This document shows positions 3,341 to 58,844 of a DNA stretch of 64,000 nt, piece after piece (the first letter of the stretch is position 1; every line of letters starts with the position of its first letter). The translations under genes were made by a program, and so were the position numbers. The stretch lies in contig VXYL01000091.1 in assembly GCA_009846005.1 (NCBI GenBank), forward strand, positions 1-64,000, given 5' to 3'. The notes under the pieces were generated by a model, which had not been told where the DNA came from, ran no database searches, and saw only the letters and a program-made list of their open reading frames with translations. Source of the stretch: Gammaproteobacteria bacterium. GTDB taxonomy: Bacteria; Pseudomonadota; Gammaproteobacteria; Pseudomonadales; Azotimanducaceae.

Positions 3341-3348
3341 CAATCCCG

Positions 3349-7610: not shown

Positions 7611-7670
7611 GAATCGGGCTTCGATGCCGTATTGTCACGATCACTCGTCGGGCCGGAGTGCCACCTTTAA

Positions 7671-10256
7671 ATGCGAAACGACCGAATCACGACACGCCTG
7701 CAGACGGCACTCGGCCAGGCCCAGTCCTTGGCCGTTGGGCGCGATCACGCCGCAGTGGAACCGCTGCACCTGCTATCCGCCCTGCTGGAAGATGGTGGCA
7801 GCGCCGCAATGCTCCGTGTTGCCGGCGTCGATGTCCAGGCCCTGGCGATGGACGTCCGGCGTCGAATCGACAACCTGCCTCGTATTGGTCGGCCGACAGG
7901 CGAGGTGACCGTGTCTCAGGAGCTCGCCAATATCCTGAACCTTGCCGACCGTGAGGCGCAGCGGCGCGGCGACGACTTCGTCTCCGCGGAAGTCGTTGTG
8001 GGGGCGCTTGGCGCCAATGCCGGAAGTGCTGGGGATGCCCTTCGGGCTGCAGGCTTCGATGCTGCCCGGTTCACCGCGGCCATCGACGCCGCCCGAGGCG
8101 GAGAGGCGGTTCGTGATGCCAACGCCGAGGAAAACCGGGAAGCGCTCGACCGCTACACCGTGGATCTCACGGCTCGCGCGGAGTCCGGCAAGCTTGACCC
8201 CGTTATCGGCCGCGACGACGAGATCCGCCGGACCATCCAGGTCCTGCAACGGCGGACCAAGAACAATCCGGCGCTTATCGGCGAGCCCGGCGTGGGAAAG
8301 ACAGCCATCGTCGAGGGTCTCGCGCAGCGCATTCTGGATGGCGAGGTGCCGGAGGGGCTCAAGAACAAACGCATCCTGTCGCTCGACATGGGCGCATTGA
8401 TCGCCGGCGCGAAGTTCCGGGGTGAATTCGAGGAACGCTTGAAGGCCGTCCTCACGGAACTCGGCAAGCAGGAAGGCAACGTCATCCTGTTCATCGACGA
8501 ACTGCACACCGTCGTCGGCGCCGGCAAGGCAGAGGGCTCCATGGATGCCGGCAACATGCTGAAGCCCGCTTTGGCGCGCGGTGAGCTGCACTGCGTCGGC
8601 GCTACGACGCTCGACGAGTACCGCCTCCACATCGAGAAGGATGCGGCCTTGGAGCGACGTTTCCAGCAAGTCCAGGTGGACGAACCCAGCGTCGAGGACA
8701 CGGTGGCGATCCTGCGCGGGTTGAAGGAGCGCTACGAACTGCACCACGGCGTCGACATCACCGATCCGGCGATCGTCGCGGCCGCCCGACTATCCCATCG
8801 ATACATCAGCGGCCGGCAGCTACCGGACAAGGCGATTGATCTGGTGGACGAAGCGGCGAGCCGAATCCGCGTCGAGATGGACTCGAAGCCCGAGCCGATG
8901 GACCGCCTCGAACGCCGGCTGATCCAACACAAGATCGAACTCGAAGCCTTGAAGGACGAATCCGACGATGCGTCGACCCAGCGTCGCCAGGGACTCGAGG
9001 AGACCATTGCCGAACTGGAGCGGGAATACGCGGATCTCGAGGAGGTCTGGACCGCCGAGAAGGCCAGCGTCAGCGATTCGCAGCAGGTGAAGGAGTCGCT
9101 GGATGCGGCCCGATTGGAGTTCGAGGCGGCGCGCCGGGCGGGCGATCTTGCCAAGATGGCGGAACTGCAGAACGGACGCATCCCCGCCTTGGAGAAGCGA
9201 CTCGCCAACGCGGCCGAGAGCGATGGGCGCGACAACGTGTTGCTCCGCAACCGGGTAACCGACGCGGAGGTCGCACAGATCGTCTGCAAGTGGACGGGCG
9301 TGCCGGTCACCAAGTTACTCGGCGGCGAGCGCGACAAGCTCCTCAAGCTCGAAGGCGCGCTGCACGACCGCGTAGTCGGCCAGGACGAGGCTGTCACGGC
9401 CGTCGCGAACGCCGTTCGCCGGGCCCGCGCCGGGATCGCGGACCCCAATCGGCCGAACGGTAGCTTCCTGTTTCTTGGACCCACGGGGGTTGGCAAGACG
9501 GAGCTGTGCCGCGCCCTCGCCGAGGCGCTGTTCGACAGCGAAGACGCTATGGTTCGCGTCGACATGTCGGAGTACATGGAAAAGCACACGGTGGCGCGGT
9601 TGATCGGTGCGCCGCCGGGCTACGTGGGGTACGAGGAAGGCGGCCAGTTGACGGAGCGGCTGCGACGGCGTCCCTATTCGCTGATCCTTCTCGACGAGAT
9701 CGAGAAGGCGCATCCGGACGTCTTCAACATCCTCCTTCAGGTTCTTGATGACGGCCGCCTCACCGACGGGCACGGGCGCACGGTGGATTTTCGCAACGCG
9801 GTGCTCGTGATGACCTCCAATCTCGGTTCTACCCGGGTGCAGTCGCTGACCAGCGCCGGCCTTGAAGACGACATCCGCGGTGCCGTGATGGAGGAAGTCG
9901 AACGCCAGTTCCGTCCAGAGTTCATCAACCGCATTGATGACGTCGTGGTCTTTGCCCCGTTGAAGAAGCGCGACATGGCGGCGATCGCCGAGATCCAACT
10001 CGAACGTCTACGCGCCCGCTTGGATGAACAGGATCTAGGCCTTGAGATCGAACCGGAAGCGATTGCGTCGTTGGTCGAGCAGGGGTACGACCCGGTGTTC
10101 GGCGCACGACCCCTGAAACGGGCGATACAGCGCAGCCTGGAAAACCCGCTGTCGGCGGCGTTGCTCGAGGGTCGGTTCGTACCCGGCGAGACCATCGGCG
10201 TTAGCCACGATGGCGAGGCCATGCGCTTCGCTGCCGTTGATGGAGTACCGGCGTGA
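7671..10256 (+). CDS. clpB: ATP-dependent disaggregase ClpB
   Basis: Hexameric AAA+ chaperone that, with DnaK, pulls proteins out of aggregates after heat stress. The 861-residue protein has an N domain (1-145), the first AAA module with GEPGVGKT and [13 protein letters not shown], and a long charged coiled-coil M domain (about 400-530), which distinguishes ClpB from ClpA. The second AAA module has [36 protein letters not shown] and [13 protein letters not shown]. The C-terminal D2 domain ends in the ARPLKRAIQ region. The ATG is preceded by GGCCGGAG at 7651-7658. A heat-shock-type promoter lies upstream, and the gene appears monocistronic, with tRNA genes following. Confidence 0.97.
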
Positions 10257-10266
10257 CGAGTATGAT
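10237..10266 (+). promoter_or_regulatory. Predicted sigma-70 promoter for tRNA-Pro/tRNA-Arg
   Basis: TTGATG (10237-10242) and TATGAT (10261-10266) with an 18-base spacer. The -35 box lies inside the end of clpB. The start would be about 8 bases before the first tRNA, as is usual for stable RNA genes. Confidence 0.5.
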
Positions 10267-10280
10267 CGCCGCGCTTTTCT

Positions 10281-10357
<77 letters not shown>

Positions 10358-10386
10358 GGTATGCGAATCGCCTATGTCCTGTCGAC

Positions 10387-10463
10387 GCGCCCGTAGCTCA
10401 ACTGGACAGAGCATCGGCCTTCTAAGCCGGCGGTTGAAGGTTCGAGTCCTTCCGGGCGCGCCA
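10387..10463 (+). tRNA. tRNA-Arg (UCU)
   Basis: Acceptor GCGCCCG pairs with CGGGCGC. The anticodon stem CGGC/GCCG carries the loop CTTCTAA with anticodon TCT. GTTCGAGTC is the T loop, followed by discriminator G and an encoded CCA. It reads the rare AGA/AGG codons and lies 29 bases after tRNA-Pro, probably in the same transcript. Confidence 0.95.
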
Positions 10464-10464
10464 G

Positions 10465-10493
10465 CCGACCGCTATGCGGTCGGTTCGGATTTA
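10465..10493 (+). terminator. Predicted terminator after tRNA-Arg
   Basis: CCGACCGC and GCGGTCGG form a perfect 8-bp stem around a TAT loop immediately after the tRNA-Arg CCA. The following bases are TTCGGATTT, a weak T-tract. It would separate the Pro-Arg transcript from tRNA-His. Confidence 0.5.
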
Positions 10494-10552
10494 CCGCGGA
10501 AGCCGGTGGTTGGACCGAGGTCCGTCGGGCGGTCGCGATGTAGGTCGTGTGC

Positions 10553-10583
10553 TTGGCGTTTGTGCCGGTGGAAGCGGTAGAAT
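10553..10583 (+). promoter_or_regulatory. Possible sigma-70 promoter for tRNA-His
   Basis: TTGGCG (10553-10558) and TAGAAT (10578-10583), spacer 19 bases, which is longer than ideal. The start would be about 16 bases before tRNA-His. Confidence 0.4.
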
Positions 10584-10606
10584 GCGCGCCCTTGACGTCG
10601 TCCAGT

Positions 10607-10683
10607 GGTGGATGTAGCTCAGTTGGTAGAGCCCCGGATTGTGGATCCGGTGGTCGCGGGTTCAAACCCCGTCATCCACCCCA
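10607..10683 (+). tRNA. tRNA-His (GUG)
   Basis: Acceptor GTGGATG pairs with CATCCAC. The anticodon stem CCGGA/TCCGG carries the loop TTGTGGA with anticodon GTG. A G at 10607 faces the discriminator C at 10680, giving the extra G-1:C73 pair that is the identity element of histidine tRNA. The CCA is encoded. It lies 47 bases before tig. Confidence 0.95.
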
Positions 10684-10730
10684 ATCGGCAACGGTGAGAA
10701 TCCACTTCTAACGATTTCTAGCGATCGACC

Positions 10731-12299
10731 ATGCAGGTATCCGTAGAGACGACGGGTTCGCTCACCCGCAAGATGACCATTGCCGTTCCGGCAGGGGAGT
10801 TCGAAGGTCGAATCGCGGACCGGGTCAGGAGCACGGCCAAGACCGTCTCGCTGCCTGGATTCCGGCGTGGCAGGGTACCGCTCAAAGAGGTTGAGCGCCG
10901 TTTCGGGGACGCACTGCGCAGCGAGGTAGCTTCCGACCTCGTGAAGTCCAGCCTCGAAGACGCCCTACGACAAGAGGAACTTCCCATGGTCGGTGCGCCG
11001 TCCGTGGAATTGGTGAACCTCGACCCCGGCGCCGATCTCGAGTTCACGGCCACGTTCGAGGTTCTTCCGGAAGTGGACCTGGTTGACCTGTCGACGCTCC
11101 ACGTGAGGAGGCCGTTCGCCGAGATTGGCGAAACGGACATCGACGAGATGGTGGAGTCGTTGCGCAAGCAACGCACGGAATGGAATCCCGTCGAACGGGC
11201 CGTTGCCGCCGATGACCGCGTTGTCGTCGATTACTCGGTCACGGTCGATGGCGAAGTCGTGGGCGAACCGCAGGCGGATTTCACTTTTGTCGTGGGTAGT
11301 TCGCAGGTGGCGACCGAGCTCGACACCGCCGTGGTTGGCATGACCGTCGGTGAAACACGGGCGTTTCCGTTGACGATACAACGGAATATCGATGAAACTT
11401 CAGGTGATGTGGAAGCCATAGGCGAAGTCGCGCTGAAGTCGTTGGAAGCGCCGTCGCTGCCGGAACTCGATGGGGATTTCTTCGAATCGTTTGGCGTCGT
11501 CGAGAAAACCGGCTTGTCGGACGATGACGCTCCGACCGGCGACGGTGCGGGTTCGCCCGACGATGGCGGTCCCGACGGGCCGGTGGATGGAGAGAATGGC
11601 GTGCCGCCCGGCACATTCGCGCAGTTCCGGGCGAACGTCCGGGAACGGATGGCGGCCGAACTCGAGGCCGCGGCGCGAAACGAGACCCGGCGCCAGGTCA
11701 TGGCATCCCTGGCAAGGGCGCACCGCTTCGAGTTACCGCGCGTGCTGGTGGAAGAGGAACTCGAACAGGAACGCGAGCGCGCGGTTCGGTTGATGGGCGT
11801 CCAGATCGAACACGCCGGCTTGGGCGACATCGTCGAACAGCGTGTCCGGGAACGCGTTAGGACGCGGCTGGTCGTGCGCGAAGTCGTACGGCGGGAGGGC
11901 CTGCAGGTGGACGACGAGCGGATTCGGGCGAGGATCGAAGAGATCGTGGCGCCGTACGAGCAACCCGACGACGTCCGCAACTGGATCTACGGGGACGAGG
12001 AGCAGCTGCAGCGGGTCGAACTCGATGTCCTAGAGGATCAGCTCGTCGAGCACGTCCTCGCCAAGGCCACCGTGGAAACGGTTGCAGCCACATACAAGGA
12101 TGTCGTGACCGGCAACTCGATCCCGGCGCTCCCGGTCGAGGCGGGGACATCCGCGGACGTGGACCTCGGGGGGTCGCCGCTCGAACGTGACGATGCCGGG
12201 CACGCCGAGGCGGCTTCCGGCGGGGATGCAGCCGTTGGCGAAGCGGACAAACCGGCAAAGGGCCGGCTGCGTCGGTGGTTCGGCGGCAAGCGCGCATAG
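10731..12299 (+). CDS. tig: Trigger factor (ribosome-associated chaperone and prolyl isomerase)
   Basis: Binds ribosomal protein L23 at the exit tunnel and shields nascent chains. The N-terminal ribosome-binding domain contains GFRRGRVP (43-50; family signature GFRxGxxP). A FKBP-type isomerase domain spans about 150-245, and the rest is the helical C-terminal chaperone domain. At 522 residues it is some 85 longer than the usual 430-440. An Asp/Gly/Pro-rich insertion sits at about 258-295, between the isomerase and C-terminal domains, and a low-complexity tail of about 50 residues ends in [11 protein letters not shown]. Both lie between conserved blocks in a continuous frame, so they are not a frameshift artefact. 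It begins the conserved tig-clpP-clpX-lon set. Confidence 0.95.
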
Positions 12300-12340
12300 T
12301 CCAGAACACTACGAATACACTGCAACAGGCGAGGGGAATC

Positions 12341-12970
12341 ATGTACAGCAATCAGCCGCCACCGGCCACGAATCTCAACCTGGTCCCGATGGTGCTCGAT
12401 CAGAATGCCCGCGGCGAACGCGCCTACGACATCTATTCCCGGCTGCTGAAGGATCGGATCATTTTCCTCGTCGGCCCGGTTGAAGACTCGGTCGCGAGCG
12501 TGGTCATCGCGCAACTCCTCTATCTGCAGCAGGAGAACCCCGAAAAGGACATTCACATGTACATCAACTCGCCGGGCGGTGCCGTGACATCGGGATTGTC
12601 GATCTACGACACGATGCAATTCGTCACCTGTGACGTCGCCACCTACTGCATCGGCCAGGCCGCCAGCATGGGAGCGTTCCTGTTGGCCGCAGGGGCGAAG
12701 GGAAAACGGCTCGCCCTGCCCAACTCCCGCATCATGCTGCACCAGCCATCGGGAGGTTCCCAGGGGGTCGCCGCCGACATAGAGATCCAGGCCCGGGAAA
12801 TACTCGCCATGCGTGAACGCCTGAACGAAATACTCGCCCGGCACACCGGACAGGGCATCGAACGGATTGCCGAGGACACCGACCGGGACTTCTGGATGAG
12901 CCCGGAAGACGCGGTGGATTACGGTCTGGTCGACATGATCAAGCACCCGGAAACCACGGGCGCAGGTTGA
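12341..12970 (+). CDS. clpP: ATP-dependent Clp protease proteolytic subunit
   Basis: Serine peptidase that forms the two-ring barrel fed by ClpX or ClpA. The catalytic triad is visible at Ser109 (GQAASMGA), His134 (IMLHQPSGG) and Asp183, exactly 12 residues later than in processed E. coli ClpP, which matches a short N-terminal propeptide. The ATG at 12341 is chosen over an upstream in-frame start at 12275 because AGGGGA lies just before it and the 209-residue length fits the family. It sits 41 bases after tig and 159 bases before clpX. Confidence 0.97.
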
Positions 12971-13067
12971 TTGCCGGGCATCGCTAGCACGGCCGGTGGG
13001 CCTCGCCAGGGCCCGTCCGGAGGCCGCGATGGCGTACAGGGTTGAGCGACGTTGGGGCGTCGCGGGG

Positions 13068-13094
13068 TTGCAAAATGACCCCTGAGCCCTCATC
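13068..13094 (+). promoter_or_regulatory. Possible sigma-32-like promoter before clpX
   Basis: TTGCAA (13068-13073), a 13-base spacer and CCCTCATC (13087-13094) resemble the heat-shock consensus less well than the clpB promoter does. The start would be about 30 bases before the clpX ATG. Confidence 0.3.
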
Positions 13095-13129
13095 GTTTGG
13101 CATCGGCGGAGCCGACACGAAGGGGCCCC

Positions 13130-14422
<1,293 letters not shown>

Positions 14423-14446
14423 CGGTCTCGAGTTAGCGTCATCCCG

Positions 14447-16891
14447 ATGTCGTCGACCGCCATGCTCACCGAACTCGCCGTACTGCCGTTACGCAAGATG
14501 GTGATCTACCCGCACGGGATCCACCCCTTGTTCGTGGGCACCAAACGCTCGATTCAGGCGCTTGAGTCGAGCATGGCCGGAGACCAGCAGATTCTCCTGG
14601 CCACCAAGCGCGACGCGACCATCGACGACCCGGGACCGGACGACCTCTACGATGTCGGTACCGTCGCGACGATCCTGCAGTTGCTGCCGCTCCCGGACGG
14701 CAAGGTCAAGGTTCTGGTGGAGGGTGGCCAGCGGGCCAAGGTCGACAGTTTCTACGTCGATGGACCGGTGATCGTCGCGGATGTGATTCCGTTCGAAGAG
14801 GTCCCATTGCCCGCCAGGGCGGCACAAGCTGTGCTGCGTTCCCTCATGGGTCGCTTCGAGACACTGGCCAAGTCGTCCAAGGAGATTCGTCAGGACGTCG
14901 TTGCGTCGTTGTCGAGCATCGACGATCCGGCGCGCCTCGTCGACACCATTGCCGCCCAGGCACCGCTCAAGCTGGAGGCCAAGCAGTCCGTGTTGGCGAC
15001 TTTCGATCTCAAGCAACGCGTGCAGCGCATCGAGGCGTACCTGGATGCGGAGATCGAAGCACGCCAGATGGACAAGCGCATCCGCGGGCGGGTCAAAAAA
15101 CAGCTGGAGAAGACTCAGCGCGAGTACTACCTGAACGAGCAGATCAAGGCGATCAACAAGGAACTCGGCGATCTGTCCGACGCGCCGAGCGAATTGGACA
15201 CCCTAAAGGAGCGGATCGACTCCGCGGGAATGCCCAAGGAAGCACGCAAGAAGGCTGCGAACGAACTGGCCAAGCTCCGGATGATGGCGCCCATGTCCGC
15301 AGAAGCCACGGTCGTTCGCAGCTACCTGGACTGGATGCTCTCGATTCCCTGGAAAAAGCGGCGACGCGTGCGGCGCGACCTGCGTGCGGCGCAGCAGATC
15401 CTCGACGATGACCACTACGGTCTCGAAGAGGTCAAGGAGCGGGTTCTGGAGTACCTCGCCGTGCAGGGAAGGGTGAAGAAGCTCAAGGGCCCCGTATTGT
15501 GCCTGGTGGGCGCACCGGGCGTGGGAAAGACTTCCCTCGGCGAGTCGATTGCCCGCGCCACCAACCGCAAGTACGTCCGCATGGCCTTGGGCGGCGTCCG
15601 CGACGAGGCCGAAATCCGCGGCCACCGGCGTACCTACATCGGCTCGATGCCCGGCAAGATACTGCAACGCATGGCGAAGGCCGGGGTGCGCAATCCGCTG
15701 TTTCTCTTGGACGAGATCGACAAGATGGGCATGGACGTTCGTGGCGACCCCGCGTCGGCATTGCTCGAAGTGCTGGATCCCGAGCAGAACCACGCCTTCA
15801 ACGATCACTATCTCGAGGTTGACTACGACCTGTCGGACGTGTTCTTCGTGTGCACGTCCAACTCGATGAACATCCCGCCCGCGCTGCTTGACCGGATGGA
15901 GGTGATCCGGCTGGCTGGCTACACCGAGGAGGAGAAACGCAGCATTGCCTCCCGGTTCCTGATCCCGAAGCAGAAGGGTCTGAACGGTCTCGGCGAAGAC
16001 GACTTCACGGTGAGCGACGATGCGCTGACCCACATGATCCGCTACTACACCAAGGAGGCGGGCGTGCGCGGCCTGGAACGCGAGATCGCCAAGCTCTGCC
16101 GCAAGGTCGTTACCGAACAGTCGCTGGCGGACGATGGCGGCCGCGGGGAGGACGGGAAAGTCGCGTCGAAGGAGATCGACGTCGGCGCCGTTGAGTCGTA
16201 CAACGGCGTGAGAAAGTACACCTACGGCAGGGCTGAGAAGAAAAACCAGGTCGGCGTCGTCACCGGGCTTGCCTGGACCCAGGCGGGCGGCGAGCTTCTC
16301 AATATCGAGGCCTTGGCGGTGGCGGGCAAGGGCCAGCAGATCAAGACCGGCTCATTGGGCGACGTCATGCAGGAGTCGATACAGGCAGCGCTGACGTTCG
16401 TACGAAGCCGAGCGCCGGCGCTTGGCATCCCAGGAGACTTCCACGAACGCTACGACCTCCACATTCACGTGCCGGAGGGGGCGACACGCAAGGACGGTCC
16501 GAGCGCCGGCATCGGGATGTGTACGGCGCTGGTGAGCGTGCTGACTGGAATCGCGGTCTCTGCGGATTTGGCGATGACCGGCGAGATTACTCTGCGCGGC
16601 CAGGTGTTGCCGATCGGCGGACTCAAGGAGAAGCTGCTCGCGGCCCACAGAGGGGGCGTAGCTCGGGTCGTGATTCCGGCGGAGAACGCGCGCGATCTGA
16701 AAGAGGTTCCCGACAACATCAAGGACGACCTCGAGATCCTCCCGGTCGAATGGATGGACGACGTGATCGAGGCCGCGCTCGAGCGTCGACCCGAACCTTG
16801 CACGGCCGAATCCGGCGACACCGAGGCTGTCGTGGGTCCACCGGAACCCGAGGCGCAACCCGGGGAAGGGCTGCCCATCAGCGCCCACTGA
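14447..16891 (+). CDS. lon: ATP-dependent protease Lon
   Basis: Cytoplasmic AAA+ serine protease that degrades misfolded and regulatory proteins. The 814 residues hold the N-terminal substrate-binding domain (LAVLPLRKMVIYPHG), a coiled-coil region (RVKKQLEKTQREYYLNEQ), and the ATPase with GAPGVGKTS and FLLDEIDKMG. The C-terminal protease has catalytic Ser in KDGPSAGIGM and catalytic Lys in GGLKEKLLAA. No strong ribosome-binding site precedes the ATG at 14447; a second ATG five codons later is possible. Only 24 bases separate it from clpX, so co-transcription is likely. Confidence 0.97.
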   Translation: MSSTAMLTELAVLPLRKMVIYPHGIHPLFVGTKRSIQALESSMAGDQQILLATKRDATIDDPGPDDLYDVGTVATILQLLPLPDGKVKVLVEGGQRAKVDSFYVDGPVIVADVIPFEEVPLPARAAQAVLRSLMGRFETLAKSSKEIRQDVVASLSSIDDPARLVDTIAAQAPLKLEAKQSVLATFDLKQRVQRIEAYLDAEIEARQMDKRIRGRVKKQLEKTQREYYLNEQIKAINKELGDLSDAPSELDTLKERIDSAGMPKEARKKAANELAKLRMMAPMSAEATVVRSYLDWMLSIPWKKRRRVRRDLRAAQQILDDDHYGLEEVKERVLEYLAVQGRVKKLKGPVLCLVGAPGVGKTSLGESIARATNRKYVRMALGGVRDEAEIRGHRRTYIGSMPGKILQRMAKAGVRNPLFLLDEIDKMGMDVRGDPASALLEVLDPEQNHAFNDHYLEVDYDLSDVFFVCTSNSMNIPPALLDRMEVIRLAGYTEEEKRSIASRFLIPKQKGLNGLGEDDFTVSDDALTHMIRYYTKEAGVRGLEREIAKLCRKVVTEQSLADDGGRGEDGKVASKEIDVGAVESYNGVRKYTYGRAEKKNQVGVVTGLAWTQAGGELLNIEALAVAGKGQQIKTGSLGDVMQESIQAALTFVRSRAPALGIPGDFHERYDLHIHVPEGATRKDGPSAGIGMCTALVSVLTGIAVSADLAMTGEITLRGQVLPIGGLKEKLLAAHRGGVARVVIPAENARDLKEVPDNIKDDLEILPVEWMDDVIEAALERRPEPCTAESGDTEAVVGPPEPEAQPGEGLPISAH

Positions 16892-49229: not shown

Positions 49230-50756
49230 ATGGCTGCGGACTTGAGCCCTCCAGATCGCGCCGCCGAAGCGGACACCGCGTCGCCGCTTCCCTTCGCGTT
49301 CGCACGCCGGTTCGGCGTGGTCGTTACCAACGGCGGGGCATCGGGGGATGCCGTGACGGTTGCATGCCGTTCGCATCCGACCCTCACCGTACTCGCCGAG
49401 ATCAAGCGCGTTACGAAGCGGCCGATGGCGATCGAGATCGTCTCGGAGGACGAGTTCGAACAACGACTCACCGCAGCCTACGTGCGCGATGCATCGGAAG
49501 CCAAGCAGATGGTCGCCGACCTCGGCGAGCATCCCGACTTGGCGAGCCTCGCGCAGTCCGTGCCGGAGGGGGAGGGCGAGGATCTGCTCGATCAGCGCAA
49601 CGACGCGCCGATCGTTCAGCTGATCACCGCGGTGCTTGCGGAGGCGATCCGCGAAGGCGCCTCGGATGTCCACATCGAGACCTTCGAGAAGTCGCTTCAG
49701 GTGAGATTCCGGATCGACGGCGTCATGCGCGAAATGGTCCAACCGAAGCGGGCCCTCGCGCCGCTCCTGGTATCGCGCGTCAAGGTCATGGCGAAGCTCG
49801 ACATCGCCGAGAAGCGGATACCCCAGGACGGCCGCATCACGCTGAAGATCGGCGGCCGGGAGGTGGATGTCCGGGTCTCGACACTGCCCACGGCGAACGG
49901 GGAGCGCGTGGTGCTGCGCCTGCTCGACAAGCAGACCGCAGCGCTCGCATTGGCGAACCTGGGAATGGATGCCGAGACCCTTGCACGGGTGCGCGGCGTG
50001 GTCGCAAAGCCCCACGGCATCTTCCTCGTGACGGGTCCCACGGGGCACGGCAAGACAACAACCCTTTATGGGGCGATGAGCGAGTTGAACCGCGAGTCGA
50101 TCAACATCCTCACCATCGAGAACCCCATCGAGTACAGCATTGCCGGCATCGGCCAGACCCAGGTCAACGAAAAGGCCGACATGACATTCGCCCGCGGTCT
50201 TCGGGCGATCCTGCGCCAGGATCCGGACGTGGTGATGGTTGGCGAGATCCGTGACCTCGAGACCGCCCAGACGGCGGTGCACGCCAGCCTCACCGGACAC
50301 CTCGTGATGTCCACGGTGCACACGAATACGGCCGTGGGCGCCGTCACGCGTCTGGTCGATATCGGCGTGGAGCCGTTCCTGATCGCCTCCAGCGTGGTCG
50401 GCATCCTCGCCCAGCGTTTGGTCCGGGTGCTATGCGACGCGTGCAAGTCGGCCGGCGAGCCGAATGCGCTGGAGCGCATGTTCCTCGGCGAGCACGCCGA
50501 CGGCGCCACGGTCTATCGACCTTCGGGCTGCGAGGAATGCAGTTGGTCCGGCTTCCGGGGCCGCACGGGAATCTACGAGTTGGTCACGGTGGACGACCAT
50601 GCGCGAACGCTCATCCACGACCAGGTCTCCGAGCAGGCGATCACGGACTATGTGCGCAATGACTGCCCGAGCATCTCCGATGACGGTCGTCGCAAGGTGC
50701 TCGACGGCGTGACCTCGGTAAACGAAGTGATGCGGGCGGTCGTCCTTACCGACTAG
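49230..50756 (+). CDS. gspE: Type II secretion ATPase GspE
   Basis: Cytoplasmic hexameric ATPase that drives pseudopilus assembly in the type II secretion system. The 508-residue protein has an N-terminal domain that binds GspL, then ASDVHIETFEKSLQVRFRID, Walker A GPTGHGKTTT (269-278; most homologues have Ser where this has His), the Asp box LTIENPIEYSIAGIGQTQVN, Walker B RAILRQDPDVVMVGEIRD and the His box. A zinc-binding CM domain follows, with Cys pairs in CDACKS and GCEEC. It is the first gene of an operon running to gspM. Confidence 0.95.
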   Translation: MAADLSPPDRAAEADTASPLPFAFARRFGVVVTNGGASGDAVTVACRSHPTLTVLAEIKRVTKRPMAIEIVSEDEFEQRLTAAYVRDASEAKQMVADLGEHPDLASLAQSVPEGEGEDLLDQRNDAPIVQLITAVLAEAIREGASDVHIETFEKSLQVRFRIDGVMREMVQPKRALAPLLVSRVKVMAKLDIAEKRIPQDGRITLKIGGREVDVRVSTLPTANGERVVLRLLDKQTAALALANLGMDAETLARVRGVVAKPHGIFLVTGPTGHGKTTTLYGAMSELNRESINILTIENPIEYSIAGIGQTQVNEKADMTFARGLRAILRQDPDVVMVGEIRDLETAQTAVHASLTGHLVMSTVHTNTAVGAVTRLVDIGVEPFLIASSVVGILAQRLVRVLCDACKSAGEPNALERMFLGEHADGATVYRPSGCEECSWSGFRGRTGIYELVTVDDHARTLIHDQVSEQAITDYVRNDCPSISDDGRRKVLDGVTSVNEVMRAVVLTD

Positions 50757-50773
50757 AGCCACGCGGTTGGGTC

Positions 50774-52006
50774 ATGGCGGCTTTCGAATACACGGCCATC
50801 GACGCCCGGGGCCGGCACAAGAAGGGCATCGAAGAAGGTGACAGTACCCGCCAGGTTCGCCAAACGCTGCGCGACAAGGGGCTGGCACCGACATCCGTCG
50901 TTCACGCCGCCAACGCCTCGGACGGCGAGTCCCGGGGAGGCGGGCCCGGAGTCAATTTGGGGTTGCGGCGCTCGATGGCGCCCTTGGAGTTGGCGCTGTT
51001 TACGCGTCAGCTTGCCACCCTGGTTGCCGCGGGGCTGCCGGTCGAGGAATCCCTGCACACCATCGCCCGACAATCCGACAAGCGCCGCGTGTCGGCCCTG
51101 GTGATGAATGTTCGTGCCCAGGTGCTCGAAGGTCACTCGCTCGCGGCGGCACTCACGGCGTATCCAAGCGCGTTCGGTCCGATGTACCGGTCCACCGTCG
51201 CCGCAGGCGAGCAGTCGGGATACCTGCATGCCGTTCTGGACAATCTGGCCGATCACACCGAGCAGCGCTTCGAGTCGGTACGCAGTGTGCAGATGGCGCT
51301 TTTCTATCCCGTTCTGCTGTTCGTCGTTTCGATCGGGATCATCTCCGGGTTGATGATCTACGTGGTGCCGAAGATCGTCGGCGTCTTCGAGCGCACCGGT
51401 AACGAACTGCCATTCCTCACGGCAGCCCTCATCGAAATCAGCGGTTTCCTGCGCGGCAATTGGTGGATCATCGCGATCCTCGGCGTCGCCATCGTGCTAC
51501 TCGTGCGGTGGCTCCTCGCCCAGGGCGACTTTCGGTTGGGGTGGGATCATCGCAAACTCTCCCTGCCGATCGTGGGCAAGGTGGTGAGAAGCGGGAATGC
51601 GAGTCGCTACGCCAGCACCCTGGCAATACTCTCGTCCAGCGGTGTTCCCTTGGTGGACGCCATGCACATTGCCACCGAGGTCGTCACGAACAGTTGGCTG
51701 AAGCGACGGCTCACGGACGCGGTCCAGTCGGTCAGCGAAGGATCGAGCCTGCGGTCAGCCTTGGAAGGCGTGCGGTATTTCCCGCCGATGTTGCTGCACA
51801 TGGTGGCCAGCGGCGAGGCGAGCGGGCAGTTGGACGCCATGTTGGCCAAGGTGGCGGACTACCAGCAGAAGGAGTTGACGCGGCTGGTCGGTACGCTGGT
51901 GCAGTTGTTTCAGCCTTTGATGCTGCTCGTTATGGCAGGCCTGGTCCTCATGATCGTACTGGCGATACTCGTGCCGATACTCAGCATGAACCAGCTAGTC
52001 GCCTAG
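50774..52006 (+). CDS. gspF: Type II secretion inner-membrane platform protein GspF
   Basis: Polytopic platform protein that couples the ATPase to pseudopilin assembly. The 410-residue sequence starts MAAFEYTAIDARGRHKKG and has the two duplicated cytoplasmic domains with LALFTRQLATLVAAGLPVEE and ASRYASTLAILSSSGVPLVD. Three hydrophobic helices are evident, including FYPVLLFVVSIGIISGLMIY and the last LMLLVMAGLVLMIVLAILVP. It begins 17 bases after gspE. Confidence 0.96.
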   Translation: MAAFEYTAIDARGRHKKGIEEGDSTRQVRQTLRDKGLAPTSVVHAANASDGESRGGGPGVNLGLRRSMAPLELALFTRQLATLVAAGLPVEESLHTIARQSDKRRVSALVMNVRAQVLEGHSLAAALTAYPSAFGPMYRSTVAAGEQSGYLHAVLDNLADHTEQRFESVRSVQMALFYPVLLFVVSIGIISGLMIYVVPKIVGVFERTGNELPFLTAALIEISGFLRGNWWIIAILGVAIVLLVRWLLAQGDFRLGWDHRKLSLPIVGKVVRSGNASRYASTLAILSSSGVPLVDAMHIATEVVTNSWLKRRLTDAVQSVSEGSSLRSALEGVRYFPPMLLHMVASGEASGQLDAMLAKVADYQQKELTRLVGTLVQLFQPLMLLVMAGLVLMIVLAILVPILSMNQLVA

Positions 52007-52066
52007 GCGGCTCACGGTGCGTGCTGGCCAATCCCCCCAACGTGGCGAAGGAGCGAAGGGAATCCG

Positions 52067-52501
52067 ATGAACAGACGAACGAGCCCCCGAAACGAGAGAG
52101 GGATGACGCTGATCGAGATCATGATGGTTGTTGCGATCCTTGGCATCCTGATTGCCGTGGTGGTACCGACCCTGATCGGGCGCGACCAGGACGCCCGGCT
52201 GACGGCCCAGAAGGCCGACATCCGCAGCATCGGCCAAGCCCTCGATATCTATCACATGCAGAACGGCCACTACCCGTCGACGGACCAAGGTCTCGAGGCG
52301 TTGGTCACCAAGCCCACTGGACATCCCGAACCGAAGTCGTGGGGACCAGCGCCGTACCTTCGCAAGTACCCCCTGGATCAATGGGGCAACGACTACGTCT
52401 ACTTGGAAGAGGGTCATACATTCGAGCTGATGTCGCTTGGGGCCGACGGCGTGGAAGGCGGCGACGACTACGATGCGGATGTCCGCTACGCCGACTTGTA
52501 G
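52067..52501 (+). CDS. gspG: Major type II pseudopilin GspG
   Basis: Main building block of the secretion pseudopilus. A 12-residue basic leader ends in Gly, followed by MTLIEIMMVVAILGILIAVV, with the conserved Glu at mature position 5. Cleavage by the prepilin peptidase would leave Met as the first residue, where most pseudopilins have Phe. The C-terminal domain holds the GspG signature YHMQNGHYPSTDQGLEALV, and calcium-site-like acidic residues follow near DGVEGGDDYDADVRYADL. The 144-residue length is typical. Confidence 0.95.
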   Translation: MNRRTSPRNERGMTLIEIMMVVAILGILIAVVVPTLIGRDQDARLTAQKADIRSIGQALDIYHMQNGHYPSTDQGLEALVTKPTGHPEPKSWGPAPYLRKYPLDQWGNDYVYLEEGHTFELMSLGADGVEGGDDYDADVRYADL

Positions 52502-52520
52502 CCAGCCGTGTCCGGACGCC

Positions 52521-53153
52521 GTGGGGACCAATCACCGGGCCGTCGGATTCACGCTGCTCGAGATTCTGCTCGTGGTCACCATCATCGGCATCCTGGCCTC
52601 GGTCGTGGTCCTCGGCGCGACCGATGTTGGAAGGCAGCGCACGGTGCGCGCCGAGGCGGAGCGGTTGGCGCTGGCCGTGGAACTCGCGCGCGACGAAGCG
52701 AGGTTGCGCAACGCGGTTTGGGGCCTGCTGGTCGACCGCGGCAGCTACCGGTTCCAGGAGTACGACGACGCCGGGGGCGAATGGCACGACGTCGAGCGTC
52801 GGGAGTTCAGCGCCGACGCCACCGGGAACAATATCGAGTTCGTGGTGGGAGTCCTCGACAACGTCGAACCCGCGTCCGTGGATGCGCCTTGGTCCTCGAA
52901 GGCTGGGGCAGGCGAATCGCCGGCTAGGGCAACCGGATTGGACGACGACGAGGCGCGTCCGCCGGACGTGGTCATCTATCCGGGCGGCGAGATGACGCCG
53001 TTCAAGATCACCGTATCCGGCGGCGAGGGCTACGCGGCCTGGATCGCCCGCTCCGACGGCATCCAGCGGGCCCGTGCCAGGGCGGAGACGGCAGTCGATG
53101 CGGTGGACGATGGTCTCCGGGAGTGGCTCCATCAGGAAGGATTCGTTCAATGA
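52521..53153 (+). CDS. gspH: Minor type II pseudopilin GspH
   Basis: Minor pseudopilin of about 210 residues. The leader ends in Gly before FTLLEILLVVTIIGILASVV, and the pattern RAEAERLALAVELARDEARL is typical of GspH. The frame is open to 52437 inside gspG, but the GTG at 52521 gives a normal 9-residue leader. The globular part is longer than usual and includes an acidic, Ala/Gly-rich stretch around WSSKAGAGESPARATGLDD. It overlaps gspI by 4 bases (ATGA). Confidence 0.88.
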   Translation: MGTNHRAVGFTLLEILLVVTIIGILASVVVLGATDVGRQRTVRAEAERLALAVELARDEARLRNAVWGLLVDRGSYRFQEYDDAGGEWHDVERREFSADATGNNIEFVVGVLDNVEPASVDAPWSSKAGAGESPARATGLDDDEARPPDVVIYPGGEMTPFKITVSGGEGYAAWIARSDGIQRARARAETAVDAVDDGLREWLHQEGFVQ

Positions 53154-53557
53154 CCAGCCTGGCGTCCGGTACCTGCCCGCGCATCGGCGGGTTCACGCTG
53201 CTGGAGTTGCTGATCGCCCTAGCGATCCTCGCCATCGTATCCATCGCCGTTTTCAACCAGGGCGGCGACACGGCGCGTCAACTCGGCGACCTTGAGCAGA
53301 AGACCTTCGCCCGGTGGGTGGCCGAGAACGAGGTCGCCAAGTTGCGCTTGAAACGCCGCCTCGACGACGAGCCCCCGCGTGTCGGTAGCAGCCGGGATCA
53401 AGTGTCCTACGGCGATCGGCATTGGCAGGTGGTCAAGGACATAAGCAATACCGAACACCCTTGGTTGTACCGGGTGCAAATCTCGGTCCATGCGCTCGCG
53501 GAGGGGCGGGAGGTCGGCAAGGTCGATACGTTGGTTGCATTCGTCGGGTTGCATTGA
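53150..53557 (+). CDS. gspI: Minor type II pseudopilin GspI
   Basis: A 135-residue minor pseudopilin; the leader ends in GG before FTLLELLIALAILAIVSIAV. The downstream pattern WVAENEVAKLRLKRRL is the GspI hallmark (family: AxxxAENxLAxLRL). GspI is the core around which the GspI-J-K tip forms. AGGAAGG precedes the ATG, which overlaps the gspH stop. Its TGA shares one base with the gspJ ATG. Confidence 0.93.
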   Translation: MTSLASGTCPRIGGFTLLELLIALAILAIVSIAVFNQGGDTARQLGDLEQKTFARWVAENEVAKLRLKRRLDDEPPRVGSSRDQVSYGDRHWQVVKDISNTEHPWLYRVQISVHALAEGREVGKVDTLVAFVGLH

Positions 53558-54288
53558 TGTCGCATGGCTCGGTCATCAACGGCGCAACCGCCGCGGGGCG
53601 CACCCGATCCGTCAAGACGGTTGCGAGTCGAGCCGGGTTCACCCTGATGGAGATGATGACGGCGCTGGCGGTGTTCGGTGTCATTGGGCTGATGGCGACG
53701 CAGATTCTCGCGGGCACGATCCGTCTCGGGGAGACGACGCGCGACCGGGGCGAAGCGCTCTCGGATGTGCAACGCGCCATGGAGATCATCGCTCGCGACA
53801 TCACGCAGTTGACGCGGCGTACGGTGAAGGACGAACTCGGCGAGTCAACGAGTCCGGTGACCATGTCCGGGACGAGCCTCCTGGAACTGACGCGCCTGGG
53901 GTGGCAAAACCCCCTTGGGAAGCCGCGCAGCGAACTCCAGCGCGTCGCCTACGCGCACAGGGACGACACCCTGATTCGCCTGTTCTGGCCGGTCCTGGAT
54001 CGCGCACCGGGGTCCGAGCCGATCGCCCAGATTCTGCTAAAGGGTGTTGCGGAGGCAAGCTTCACCGCCCACGACGACCAAGGCGAGCAGCACGGCTTCT
54101 GGCCCCTGGTCGCGGCGGAGGACGAGGTGGCGCCGAAACTTGCCGCAATCGCCATGGCGCTGCGACTCGAACGGCATGGCCACATCGAACGCCTATGGCT
54201 GGTACCGTCCGGGCCAGTGCCAGTGCCCGATGCCGGGCCGGGCATACCCGATGGCCGCGACGTCGAACCCGGCCGGGTCCGATCATGA
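53557..54288 (+). CDS. gspJ: Minor type II pseudopilin GspJ
   Basis: A 243-residue tip pseudopilin. A basic leader ends in AG before FTLMEMMTALAVFGVIGLMA. The family pattern DVQRAMEIIARDITQLTRR and SLLELTRLGWQNPLGKPRSE, followed by LQRVAYAHRDDTLIRLFWPV, identifies GspJ. The ATG at 53557 overlaps the gspI stop by one base. A Pro/Gly-rich tail follows the globular domain. It overlaps gspK by 4 bases (ATGA). Confidence 0.93.
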   Translation: MSHGSVINGATAAGRTRSVKTVASRAGFTLMEMMTALAVFGVIGLMATQILAGTIRLGETTRDRGEALSDVQRAMEIIARDITQLTRRTVKDELGESTSPVTMSGTSLLELTRLGWQNPLGKPRSELQRVAYAHRDDTLIRLFWPVLDRAPGSEPIAQILLKGVAEASFTAHDDQGEQHGFWPLVAAEDEVAPKLAAIAMALRLERHGHIERLWLVPSGPVPVPDAGPGIPDGRDVEPGRVRS

Positions 54289-55262
54289 TGGCTGACCGTC
54301 AACGTCGTCGAGGCCCGCGCGGGCTGGCGCTGGTGAGTGTCCTGCTGATCGTGGCCGTCACAACCGCACTGGCCTACGAGATCGCCAACCGGCATGCGTT
54401 CGGGGTCGCGGTCAGCCGTCAGACGCTGGCTGGCTCGCAGGCCCGCGAGTACGCCCTCGCAGGCGAGCAGTACGTGCGACAACTGCTCTATGCCGATTGG
54501 GAGGACGAGGGGACGCGGTCCAAGGACACGTTGCTCGAAGACTGGGCAACAACAGGAGCTCTCGAGGTCGATGACGGCGAGATCGAAATACGTGTCGCGG
54601 ATCTCTCGTCGCGGTTCAACCTGAACAGCGTGGTTGGTGGCGAGGGTCCCCAAAATACGGCGCGACTCAAACGGTTGTTCACGCACTTGGAGTTGGATCC
54701 CGGCACGGTGGACGCGTGGGTCGATTGGATCGATGGGGACCAGGAGGTGCAACCCTACGGGGCCGAGGACGCGGACTACCTACTGCGCGAACCGCCGCAT
54801 CGGGCGGCCGACCAACCCGCCGTCGACCGATCGGAACTTCGCCTCGCCGTACCGTTCGAGTCGCGTGATGACTATGCTCGCCTGGAACCCCATGTCACGG
54901 TTCTGCCCACGGACCGGTTGGCAATCAATGTCAATACCGTCAGCGACGCTGTGCTCGCGAGCCTGGCACCGAACTTCCCGGCCGCCGACGCTCAACTGCT
55001 GGTTGAACAAGTACGCGACTTCGACGACGTGGAAGGCGTCATCGCCAGCTACGCACCGCTCGGCGCAAGCGCTGCCGCGCTCAGGGTGGGCAGCGAGTTC
55101 TTCGAGGTACAGGTAAAGGCGCACCATGGGGTCACGCGGTCGGAGCTTACATCGATTCTGCACCGCGACTCCGAAAACGGGATGCTGACGGTGGTGTCGC
55201 GGACGTTCGGGCGGCGGTTCGAGTCCGCCGCCGACGGGGCCGCTGCGGGTACGGAGTCATAG
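54285..55262 (+). CDS. gspK: Type II secretion pseudopilin GspK
   Basis: Largest minor pseudopilin, capping the pseudopilus. The 325-residue protein has the basic leader MMADRQRRRGPRG followed by LALVSVLLIVAVTTALAYEI. It lacks the Glu at mature position 5, as GspK normally does. DLSSRFNLNSVV, VDAWVDWIDGDQEVQPYGAE, DYLLREPPHRAADQP and LAINVNTVSDAVLASLAPN are GspK-typical. The start overlaps the gspJ stop. The same frame is open far upstream, but that part is only the shadow of gspI and gspJ. Confidence 0.93.
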   Translation: MMADRQRRRGPRGLALVSVLLIVAVTTALAYEIANRHAFGVAVSRQTLAGSQAREYALAGEQYVRQLLYADWEDEGTRSKDTLLEDWATTGALEVDDGEIEIRVADLSSRFNLNSVVGGEGPQNTARLKRLFTHLELDPGTVDAWVDWIDGDQEVQPYGAEDADYLLREPPHRAADQPAVDRSELRLAVPFESRDDYARLEPHVTVLPTDRLAINVNTVSDAVLASLAPNFPAADAQLLVEQVRDFDDVEGVIASYAPLGASAAALRVGSEFFEVQVKAHHGVTRSELTSILHRDSENGMLTVVSRTFGRRFESAADGAAAGTES

Positions 55263-55266
55263 CGGT

Positions 55267-56514
55267 ATGCGTTTGTACGTGCGGATCAGGACGCCGGTCG
55301 TGCGCACGGAGGAGGGCATCGACGCCGCCGTCGACTACCTCGTTCGCGACGAGGACGGGATGACCGAAGCGGCAGGGCGGACCGATGCCCGGGGCCTCGC
55401 CCAAATCGTGGGGACCCTCGGGCCGTGGGCGGAGGATCCGGCAAAGGTGGTGATCCTGGTGCCCGTGAGCGACGTCCTGTCGGCCAGTTGCGAGGTTCCC
55501 GGCCGCAGTGCCTCCCAAATGCGGCGGGCAGTGCCCTATGCCGTCGAAGAGTTCGTTGCGGATGACATCGACACGATGCAGGTGGCCTGTGCGGAGGTGG
55601 TGCGCAACGAGCCGGTCCGTTGCCTGGTCGCACCGCGCAGCAGCGTCGAGGATTGGTTGGCGCTATTGGCCGAAGCTGGCATCGAGCCGGGTTTCATGAC
55701 CGCTGATGCCATGGCCCTCGTGGACCACGGTAGCGTCATCAGCGTGCTATTCGAGGACGACCACGCGCTGGTCCGCGCATCGGAACAGATGGCGTCGGTT
55801 GACCTGCCCAACCTCGGCGAAGTGATCGATGGCGTTGCCGACGCGATCATGGATCCGGGCGATCGGCCCGTGCTTCGATTGATCAACGGAACGCTAGGCG
55901 ATCTGCCCGGATTGCGGATCGACCGCTTCGAGGTCGAGGAAGTGCCCGTCGAGACATCGGTACTCGGGTTTCTCGCCGGCGAATCCGACGGCCAAGCGGT
56001 CAACCTGTTGCAGGGCGACTATGCGGTTCGGCGGCGCCCGACGGGCGCCTGGTCCCGTTGGCGACCCGTGGCCGCGGCGGCGGGTGTCTGGCTGGCGGTC
56101 GGTTTGGCCGCGCTGGCAGCGCAAGGGTTTTGGGCCGACTACCAGGCGAACCGGTTCCGCGAACAGGCCGTCGACCTCTACCGGTCGCTCTACGGTGTCG
56201 ACCGCGTCGCCGGGAACCCGGCTGCACGTATGCGGCGGTTACTCGGCCAGACCACCGGCACCGACGAGAGTTTCCATGGCCTGGTCGGCCAACTCGGGAT
56301 GGGCCTCTCGGACATTTCGGGTCAATACGAATTGCGGGGCGTGACCTATTCGCCGCGTCGGGGTCTCGATGCGGACCTGTTGGTGGCCGACGACGGGGTA
56401 CTGGAGCGACTCGGCGCGTCGCTTAGGCGCCAGGGGTTGGACATGGAAGTCATCTCGACGGACTCGGCGCAGTCCGGCGCGAGGATCGGGGCGCGACTGC
56501 GCGTCTCAGGCTGA
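55267..56514 (+). CDS. gspL: Type II secretion protein GspL
   Basis: Bitopic inner-membrane protein that recruits GspE. The 415-residue protein has an N-terminal cytoplasmic actin-like domain (VVILVPVSDVLSASCEVPGR; MRRAVPYAVEEFVADDIDTM is typical GspL). A single helix lies at about 272-290 (PVAAAAGVWLAVGLAALAAQ), and a periplasmic ferredoxin-like domain ends GARIGARLRVSG. It starts 4 bases after the gspK stop. Sequence is divergent, as is usual for GspL; operon position supports the call. Confidence 0.9.
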   Translation: MRLYVRIRTPVVRTEEGIDAAVDYLVRDEDGMTEAAGRTDARGLAQIVGTLGPWAEDPAKVVILVPVSDVLSASCEVPGRSASQMRRAVPYAVEEFVADDIDTMQVACAEVVRNEPVRCLVAPRSSVEDWLALLAEAGIEPGFMTADAMALVDHGSVISVLFEDDHALVRASEQMASVDLPNLGEVIDGVADAIMDPGDRPVLRLINGTLGDLPGLRIDRFEVEEVPVETSVLGFLAGESDGQAVNLLQGDYAVRRRPTGAWSRWRPVAAAAGVWLAVGLAALAAQGFWADYQANRFREQAVDLYRSLYGVDRVAGNPAARMRRLLGQTTGTDESFHGLVGQLGMGLSDISGQYELRGVTYSPRRGLDADLLVADDGVLERLGASLRRQGLDMEVISTDSAQSGARIGARLRVSG

Positions 56515-56519
56515 CTGCA

Positions 56520-57011
56520 ATGGCCGTGTTCGAGTCCATCAATACTGCCTGGGGCCGATCCGGCCTACGGCGGCGCTACGAGTCGCTAGCCGCGCGCGAA
56601 CGCCTGCTGGTGCGGATTTGTCTCGGGCTGCTTCTCGGGCTGGCTCTCTATGCAACCATCGACGCGTTGCTCGGGTTCCGCGGCGAAGCCGTCACCCGCT
56701 ACTTGAACGAGCAACGCGACCTGGAATGGATGAAACGCAACCAGCACCGGGTTTCCCGGGGCGACAACGCGGGGGGCACCGGCGAGTTGCTCTCGACGGT
56801 GGTCAACAGTACGGCCGCTCAGGTCGGTTTTCGGCCACGACGCACGCAAACCGAAACCGACGGTGTCAGTGCGCGGATCGAAGCCGAACAGTTCGAGATG
56901 GTGTTGCGCTGGGCGTACGCGCTGGAGACGCGTCACGGCGTCGAGGTTACACGGGCGGATATTGACCTCAACGAGGCGGGCAGGGTCGACGCCCGCTTCA
57001 GCCTACGTTGA
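56520..57011 (+). CDS. gspM: Type II secretion protein GspM
   Basis: A 163-residue bitopic partner of GspL. Short cytoplasmic N-terminus with RRRYESLAARERLLVRICLG, one helix (about 32-50), a coiled-coil-like segment (YLNEQRDLEWMKRNQHRV) and a small periplasmic domain. It is recognised mainly from the ERLLV motif before the helix, the size and its place after gspL. It ends the operon; gspN, gspC and gspD are not present. The stop codon lies 22 bases before the dif site. Confidence 0.85.
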   Translation: MAVFESINTAWGRSGLRRRYESLAARERLLVRICLGLLLGLALYATIDALLGFRGEAVTRYLNEQRDLEWMKRNQHRVSRGDNAGGTGELLSTVVNSTAAQVGFRPRRTQTETDGVSARIEAEQFEMVLRWAYALETRHGVEVTRADIDLNEAGRVDARFSLR

Positions 57012-57032
57012 GCCGCCGGATGCTCGGGCGTA

Positions 57033-57060
57033 ATTTAACATAATATACATTATGCGAAGT
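57033..57060 (-). other. dif: Chromosome dimer resolution site dif (XerCD target)
   Basis: Read on the minus strand, the 28 bases are ACTTCGCATAA (XerC arm), TGTATA (central hexamer) and TTATGTTAAAT (XerD arm). Compared with the E. coli dif arms GGTGCGCATAA and TTATGTTAAAT with TGTATA between, 25 of 28 bases agree. All three differences are in the outer part of the XerC arm, where dif sites vary. The site is an AT-rich island in GC-rich DNA, lies between genes, and FtsK-orienting motifs on both sides point toward it. This marks the replication terminus. Confidence 0.93.
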
Positions 57061-57064
57061 TATC

Positions 57065-57088
57065 GGCCGGCCTGGTGCTTTGCCGGCC
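57065..57088. terminator. Inverted repeat next to dif
   Basis: GGCCGGC and GCCGGCC form a 7-bp stem with a 10-base loop, 4 bases from dif and 54 bases after the gspM stop. No T-run follows. It may terminate the gsp operon before the recombination site, or simply be a local palindrome. Confidence 0.35.
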
Positions 57089-57239
57089 CGAGTCAGGAAT
57101 CGCGTACTCTCCGCGACCTCCTCCTGTAGCAAAGGAATGTTCTACAACCAACGGAAATGGAAGGAAAAACCTTGTCCTGCGCGCGACGTTGACGCGCCCG
57201 CGACAGACACCCGCGGGCTGGCGAGATGGGACAGGTCCC

Positions 57240-58844
57240 CTACGTGAGCAACGCCTTGCCGACGACCTTGAGGGCGAGGGTCTCTTCCGTTCCCTCGAAG
57301 ATCGACAGCACCCGGGCGTCCACGAAATACCGGCTTACGTCGGTTTCCTCGGCGTACCCCATGCCGCCGTGGATCTGCATGGCCTCCCGCGTGATCCATT
57401 CCGCGGCCTTGCAGGCGATGAGCTTCACCAGGCTTGCCTCCAACTGGCCGTTGCCCGCGTCCATGGTCCTTGCTACCGCGTACGAGAATTGCCGGCAGGC
57501 AGTTATCGTTGCCGCCATCCGGGCCAGTTTCTGCAGGGTCAGCGGGTAGTCAGCGACGGGGCGGTCGAACACCAGACGCTGCTCGGCGTACTCGAGCGCC
57601 CGGTCGAACGCCGCCCGCATCAACCCGCAAGCCCGGGCGGCCGTCTGCAGCCGCCCGCCCGCGAATCCGCTCATCGTGTAGTAGAACCCCCGACCGCGAC
57701 CTTCGGCCTCGCCCACCAGCGCGTGTGCGGGAACGACGAAACCGTCGAAGAACAGTTCGAAGGAGTGCATGCCCCTGTAGCCGATCGTGGGGATGGCACG
57801 ACCGGTCAAGCGACCGCCCATGGGACTGTCGACGCTGAACGACTGGGCGCGGCTCGGGGGCTTTTCGACGACGAAGAGGGACAGGCCCCGGTGTGGCGGC
57901 GAGGCGTCCGGTTCGGTTCGTGCCAATACCAGGATGGCGCCGGCCCTGCCCGCGAAGGTGCACCAGGTCTTGCCGCCGTTCAGGGTCCACGCCCACTGGC
58001 CGTCGACCTCGATGGGTGACGCCCGTAGTGCAACGGTTGCGACGTCCGAACCCGTACCGGGCTCGGTGACCGAGATTGCGACCAGCGGTTCGCCGGCGGC
58101 TATCCCGGGCAACCAGCGTGCCTTCTGGGCGTCGGTTCCGCCGTCTAGTACGGCGCGTGCCATGATCTCGGGCCGGGTGATTAGACTTCCCGCGGCGCCC
58201 AGCGATCCCAGGGACAGTTCCTCGGTCACGACCACCATGCCCAGGCTGTCCTCGTGGTCGTCGGGCTTCAGGCCGCCGTAACGGGCGGGTACCGACAGAC
58301 CGAAACACCCGAGTTCCCGCAGGCCATCGATGATGACGTCGGGGATCATCTGATCTCGGCGGTGGATATCCTCGGCCAATGGAACGACTCTGTCCGCTGC
58401 GAATTGGCGGAACGTGTCCCGAATCAACGCCTTTTCGTCACCTAGGTGGTCAACCGGTGGCCTGCCTTGGCGCCGCCGGATGGTCTCGCCAATTGCCACG
58501 AGGTTGGATGGAGCGAGATGTTCCTCGATGAACTGACGTGATCCGCCGTCGAAGTCCCCGGGGCGCAGGCCGAATGCGGATGGCCTCGTCTGCAATCGAC
58601 CGCGCACCGCAGCGAGCGCGTCGGCCGTGAACAGGTTTGCCAACGAACGTTTGAATGGAGCCTCGTCGGAAGGCGCGGGATGATCGGCATAGTCGAGCGC
58701 GGCGTGTGCGGCGTGGAGTTCGGCCGTCGACAGGGCGAGGTCGTAGACCTCCATCTGGACCTCGTCCACGTCCCGGCCGGCGAGATGCGCCCTCCCCCGC
58801 TTGATCAACGCCGAGGTCTCCTCAATGGCTTGTCGTGCGTCCAC
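57240..58844 (-). CDS. Acyl-CoA dehydrogenase family protein with N-terminal extension
   Basis: FAD enzyme that would oxidise an acyl-CoA and hand electrons to ETF. The core, about residues 135-534, shows ISVTEPGTGSDVATVALRAS, WTLNGGKTWCTFAGRA, EAMQIHGGMGYAEETDVSRY and the catalytic-Glu region SIFEGTEET. Residues 1-130 are an extra helical domain not found in the common 380-residue enzymes, with DEVQMEVYDLALSTAELHAA and FIEEHLAPSNLVAIGETIRR. The substrate is unknown. It is divergent from the SMP-30 gene and is the only leftward gene right of dif. Confidence 0.9.
   Translation of the reverse strand: MDARQAIEETSALIKRGRAHLAGRDVDEVQMEVYDLALSTAELHAAHAALDYADHPAPSDEAPFKRSLANLFTADALAAVRGRLQTRPSAFGLRPGDFDGGSRQFIEEHLAPSNLVAIGETIRRRQGRPPVDHLGDEKALIRDTFRQFAADRVVPLAEDIHRRDQMIPDVIIDGLRELGCFGLSVPARYGGLKPDDHEDSLGMVVVTEELSLGSLGAAGSLITRPEIMARAVLDGGTDAQKARWLPGIAAGEPLVAISVTEPGTGSDVATVALRASPIEVDGQWAWTLNGGKTWCTFAGRAGAILVLARTEPDASPPHRGLSLFVVEKPPSRAQSFSVDSPMGGRLTGRAIPTIGYRGMHSFELFFDGFVVPAHALVGEAEGRGRGFYYTMSGFAGGRLQTAARACGLMRAAFDRALEYAEQRLVFDRPVADYPLTLQKLARMAATITACRQFSYAVARTMDAGNGQLEASLVKLIACKAAEWITREAMQIHGGMGYAEETDVSRYFVDARVLSIFEGTEETLALKVVGKALLT

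Follow-up and report, generated by a model that had tools for sequence, protein, structure and literature searches.

Chromosomal dif sites of the Gammaproteobacteria are intergenic 28-bp sequences of low G+C content with an 11 + 6 + 11 layout, located at the switch in GC skew of chromosomes whose genomes encode both XerC and XerD. In E. coli, the gamma domain of FtsK reads orienting octamers and activates XerD. The E. coli K12 dif is tabulated as GGTGCGCATAATGTATATTATGTTAAAT, and lower conservation of the XerC arm, and of the outer portions of the arms, is described in the same source (PMC2731167). CTX phage and other integrated elements that exploit XerCD carry sites that are likewise 28 bp, dif-like and recognized by the host XerCD (PMC9966536). 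The locus reported here resembles the chromosomal sites in length, layout, intergenic placement, low G+C content, position at the skew switch and the presence of XerC and XerD in the genome, and differs from the integrated elements in being single, the genome search having returned no second copy.

The 28-bp site and its parts

The window analyzed is a stretch of 64,000 bases (bases 1-64000 of a 98,253-base contig) from a draft genome of 4,959,962 bases in 106 contigs that is 97.16% complete. A first-pass annotation had proposed a 28-mer with minus-strand arms around TGTATA, and ACTTCGCATAATGTATATTATGTTAAAT was found exactly there, at 57033-57060 on the minus strand, as the sole match in the window with three or fewer mismatches. 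Compared with the E. coli K12 dif tabulated in PMC2731167, the XerD arm and the hexamer are identical, and the 3 differences among 28 positions are confined to the four outermost XerC-arm bases, in agreement with the 25 of 28 match and perfect XerD arm and hexamer given by the annotation. The P. aeruginosa PAO1 dif in the same table matches at 26 of 28 positions, and its 2 differences again lie in the outer four XerC-arm bases.

The 28-mer is palindromic, retains the 11 + 6 + 11 layout with the conserved XerD arm, and lies between convergent genes. Its placement between a type II secretion operon and an acyl-CoA dehydrogenase gene had been read correctly, with the gspM reading frame flanking it on the left and the dehydrogenase reading frame on the right (Table 1). 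By letter count, only 6 of its 28 bases are G or C, below the G+C content of the chromosome and in surroundings of ~66% G+C. The expectation that such an AT-rich 28-mer is very unlikely to arise by chance in GC-rich DNA is borne out by dinucleotide-preserving shuffles, 0 of 100 of which held a match to it.

Table 1 Features at and around the dif site, in window coordinates.
Feature	Position	Strand	Basis or remark
dif site: XerC arm ACTTCGCATAA, hexamer TGTATA, XerD arm TTATGTTAAAT	57033..57060	-	sequence match
XerD-binding arm (predicted), gspM side	57033..57043	-	all 11 bases identical across the 16 same-genus sites
Central hexamer TGTATA	57044..57049	-	5 variants among 16 same-genus sites
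XerC-binding arm (predicted), acyl-CoA dehydrogenase side	57050..57060	-	inner 7 bases the same, outer 4 variable, in 16 same-genus sites
Nearest KOPS-like octamer on the left, GGGCAGGG, aimed at dif	56978..56985	+	motif scan
Nearest KOPS-like octamer on the right, GGGCAGGG, aimed at dif	57944..57951	-	motif scan
Type II secretion (T2SS) genes left of dif	49230..57011	+	gspE, gspF, gspK, gspL and gspM as listed below
gspE	49230-50756	+	T2SS gene
gspF	50774-52006	+	T2SS gene
gspK	53490-55262	+	T2SS gene
gspL	55267-56514	+	T2SS gene
gspM	56520-57011	+	Pfam T2SSM; reading frame flanking dif on the left
Gene of the acyl-CoA dehydrogenase family	57240..58844	-	reading frame flanking dif on the right; conserved as a neighbour

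Copy number and conservation among relatives

A genome-wide search for equally good copies, as proposed in the first-pass annotation, returned no second one. The inner 24 bases of dif match once, at up to three mismatches, in the whole 4.96 Mb draft (106 contigs), where a reversed-pattern control gave 0 matches. The search was extended to a panel of 97 genomes, comprising the window's own, 15 of the same genus, 45 of the family and 36 of the order. A match to the dif pattern was present in 70 of the 97 (own genome included) and the control pattern in none; 27 of the 97, some of them at least 95% complete, held no match within three mismatches. One copy per chromosome was found throughout the genus, with a single match in the 97.16% complete own draft and exactly one in each of the 15 other genomes. 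More than one dif-like match was seen in two genomes of the order, G067 (two) and G094 (three).

The suggested comparison with related gammaproteobacteria bore out the call. All 15 of the other same-genus sites differ from that of the window in the hexamer only, though three mismatches were allowed anywhere in the 24 bases. The 16 same-genus sites were also aligned with dif at the center; this alignment used a both-arm pattern, and arm identity within it is by construction. Mean pairwise identity was 0.78 in the hexamer, which occurs in five variants (TGTATA in 8 of 16), 0.58 in the outer four XerC bases, and 0.31 in the 40-base flanks on either side.

Degenerate second sites were sought as well. 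On the window's own contig, the best arm-only match carries 7 mismatches in 18 positions once the palindromic reverse of dif is excluded. In 200 kb of the same-genus genome G012, including a 28-kb gap between the dehydrogenase gene and dif, the best arm match has 6 of 18 mismatches; five simple shuffles gave best matches with 5-6 of 18, and the idea of a second, degenerate dif there was rejected.

These data bear directly on whether the 28-mer could be the dif-like attachment site of a XerCD-using integrated element and not the dif of the chromosome itself. Elements of this kind seem to be present in the same order (G067, below), but the window's genome has a single site only, with no second dif-like site flanking an element (7 of 18 mismatches in the best other arm match on the contig), and gspM, the dehydrogenase gene or both lie within 1.7 kb of the site in all 15 other same-genus genomes. 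We consider an attachment site very improbable.

The two sites of G067 (C81:14000-31857, locus L236, about 2986-15878) have the same orientation and lie ~12.9 kb apart; the DNA between them encodes a replication protein of the phage GPA type and a P2 coat protein (Pfam P2_N, P2_C). Judging by these genes, the element is a probable PM2-like prophage without a tail that has integrated at dif; dif-like sites have been published for tailless vibriophages and for PM2 (PMC9966536). In G094, an identical dif-like 24-mer, three mismatches from that of the window, occurs at C3:64123-64146 and at C4:105535-105558, on contigs of 137 and 122 kb, with the C3 copy close to a transposase gene and a UmuC-like gene. 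These two 24-mers are possibly plasmid sites for XerCD.

Position on the chromosome and recombination machinery

Up to dif, the window's own contig shows GC skews of +0.02 to +0.07 in six 10-kb bins, the last of which straddles the site; the four bins beyond it range from -0.03 to +0.02. The signal is weak: the skew falls to about zero past dif and is not clearly negative, and the cumulative skew flattens near dif with its maximum on a plateau 33 kb to the right. G012 and a further genome of the same genus, G013, are single contigs of 4.33 and 5.07 Mb that hold dif and dnaA together, and in these the 200-kb cumulative GC skew reaches its peak at -134 bp and -1,328 bp relative to dif, respectively. 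The published median skew-dif distance for 161 proteobacterial chromosomes is 7,277 bp (PMC2731167). The location of dif at the cumulative skew maximum is clear in G012 and G013 and weak on the own contig, and a distant GC-skew switch, which the first-pass annotation had named as grounds for doubt, was not found. Whole-genome skew in G012 was sampled in 18 of 20 stretches of 20 kb, leaving out those that hold dif or adjoin dnaA; the sign was as expected in 6 of 9 stretches of one replichore and in 8 of 9 of the other.

Distances between dif and dnaA were taken the shorter way around, as a percentage of the contig, in the four genomes with both on one contig of known length. They amount to 49.4% in G012, 46.4% in G013 and 45.8% in G053, a genome of the same family. 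The fourth, G088 of the same order, has dif at 4,230,494 on contig C1 and dnaA at the start of that contig, ~358 kb away (7.8% of its length), so dif cannot always be equated with a position opposite the origin. Of 19 G088 stretches sampled ahead of dif, 18 have positive skew, and the single stretch beyond it is negative; in the final 400 kb, the cumulative curve reaches its maximum 61 kb past dif and its minimum ~10 kb from dnaA. The site is still near the compositional switch in this genome, and the replichores are very unequal, at ~4.2 and ~0.36 Mb. SkewDB lists some 100 chromosomes whose strand lengths differ threefold or more (PMC8941118). Judged by base composition, the predicted dif marks the compositional switch.

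A dif belonging to a secondary replicon, either a chromid or a large plasmid, was weighed against these data. The draft is in 106 contigs and its dnaA is on a different contig (C5) from the window, as such a replicon would allow, but in G012 (4.33 Mb) and G013 (5.07 Mb) a single contig bears both the syntenic dif and dnaA, separated by about half its length, and the search of the window's genome turned up no further dif. In both relatives the site stands beside T2SS genes as in the window, and the first-pass concern that the contig might be a plasmid did not hold; we give a secondary replicon hardly any credence.

The window's genome encodes XerC, XerD and the FtsK gamma domain. A profile search with the XerD model returned five matches, one of them above the XerD cut-off (368.9 bits against 329.6), and a second scores best as XerC (341.6 bits against 335.15), both judged against curated cut-offs; the remaining three are weak. 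The FtsK_gamma domain was found in 4 of the 4 genomes searched, the own genome included.

For polarity counts we used GGGNAGGG, which we take to be the FtsK-orienting octamer motif (KOPS). On the own contig, 19 of 20 occurrences are directed to dif, and the best split interval, 56978-57944, contains the site. Over 200 kb, the octamer points to dif in 28 of 35 cases in G013, where the best split includes dif, and in 30 of 40 in G012, where the best split lies 2.3-3.3 kb beside dif and not across it. Away from the G012 terminus (the 18 sampled stretches), 15 of 28 point towards dif, which is no polarity. As a control, 42 of 56 arrangements of the same letters were scored, the 14 with N at an end being dropped; the median arrangement had 64% towards dif versus 81% for GGGNAGGG, which ranked 2 of 42. 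FtsK-orienting sequences thus converge on dif on the own contig with a bias partly common to composition-matched octamers, and because these octamers show part of the bias, KOPS polarity was rejected as stand-alone proof. Octamer polarity near dif is supportive, reflects general G-richness in part and, in G012, is confined to the terminus region. A scan of the own contig for the matS pattern gave no match.

Every sequence-testable defining feature of a chromosomal dif was observed: the site itself, its uniqueness, its conserved arms, a location at the switch in composition, and the presence of XerC, XerD and FtsK gamma in the genome. We place the probability that the window 28-mer is a chromosomal dif site of XerCD/FtsK dimer resolution, as its sequence suggests, at about 97%. 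The first-pass reading of the region as the replication terminus is supported by the uniqueness of the site, the skew switch and the distance from dnaA in G012 and G013. By analogy with the E. coli system, we infer that XerC and XerD would bind the 28-mer, that FtsK would activate XerD and that recombination would occur there. Recombination joining two sister chromosomes would yield a dimer; FtsK at the division septum would then pump DNA towards the terminus, with polar octamers as its guide, bring the two dif copies together and activate XerD. Strand exchange within the 28-mer by XerD, then by XerC, would leave two monomers.

Gene neighbourhood and meaning of the site

In 12 of the 15 other genomes of the genus, gspM and dif are no more than 1.0 kb apart, with gspM on the XerD side; the distance grows to 6.9 kb in G015, and electron-transfer flavoprotein genes take the place of gspM in G006 and G007. 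On the XerC side, 13 of the 14 same-genus genomes whose contig is long enough carry the acyl-CoA dehydrogenase gene at a distance of 1.7 kb or less, and in G012 it is 28 kb from dif. One or both of these neighbours are found within 1.7 kb of dif in each of the 15, and the orientation gspM - dif - acyl-CoA dehydrogenase is constant wherever seen in the genus. In G006 and G007, etfBA, which come before the T2SS genes in the window, remain no more than 1 kb from dif, and gspE is ~72 and ~82 kb from it on the same contig. Loss of the T2SS was rejected for both genomes, with gspE still on the dif contig; the gene order, etfBA near dif and gspE distant, indicates a rearrangement close to the terminus.

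Outside the genus, five loci with ~7.5 kb on each side comprise one with both neighbours (G053) and four with neither, and 30 dif loci with flanks of up to 1.5 kb include a gsp gene in 4 and the dehydrogenase in none. Conversely, 80 named loci picked by their dehydrogenase, which overlap in part with the genomes of the dif panel, hold dif in 16, with T2SS genes on the far side in 14 of those 16. The linkage of gspM, dif and dehydrogenase is a genus feature, partly common to some other genera, patchy outside and mildly unusual; dif is described in PMC2731167, in its passage on the surroundings of the site, as having no apparent specific genetic environment. It seems doubtful that the fixed neighbourhood reflects selection on terminus position for the T2SS or dehydrogenase genes or an unusual protection from rearrangement.

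Elsewhere in the window, a tRNA cluster of three genes (Pro, Arg, His) spans 10281-10683. A MAG contig titled Klebsiella pneumoniae (L200), a record name that may be wrong, carries a dehydrogenase 58% identical to that of the window. Scanning 56000-58000 against Rfam returned nothing at the gathering score, and a promoter and terminator scan of 56950-57300 found neither. That the site is a chance AT-rich palindrome or a terminator has negligible probability: it is palindromic and sits between convergent genes, but none of the 100 shuffles held a match, that interval yielded no terminator-like site, and 16 genomes with near-random flanking sequence share its arms.

The finding is ordinary biology, one more well-supported member of a thoroughly known class of sites. 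The catalogue of known dif sites gains one entry, and the known mechanism is unchallenged. For the organism, dif anchors the window on the chromosome map, with the DNA to the left of 57033 predicted to belong to one replichore and that to the right of 57060 to the other, and the direction in which the window is replicated would follow from the site.
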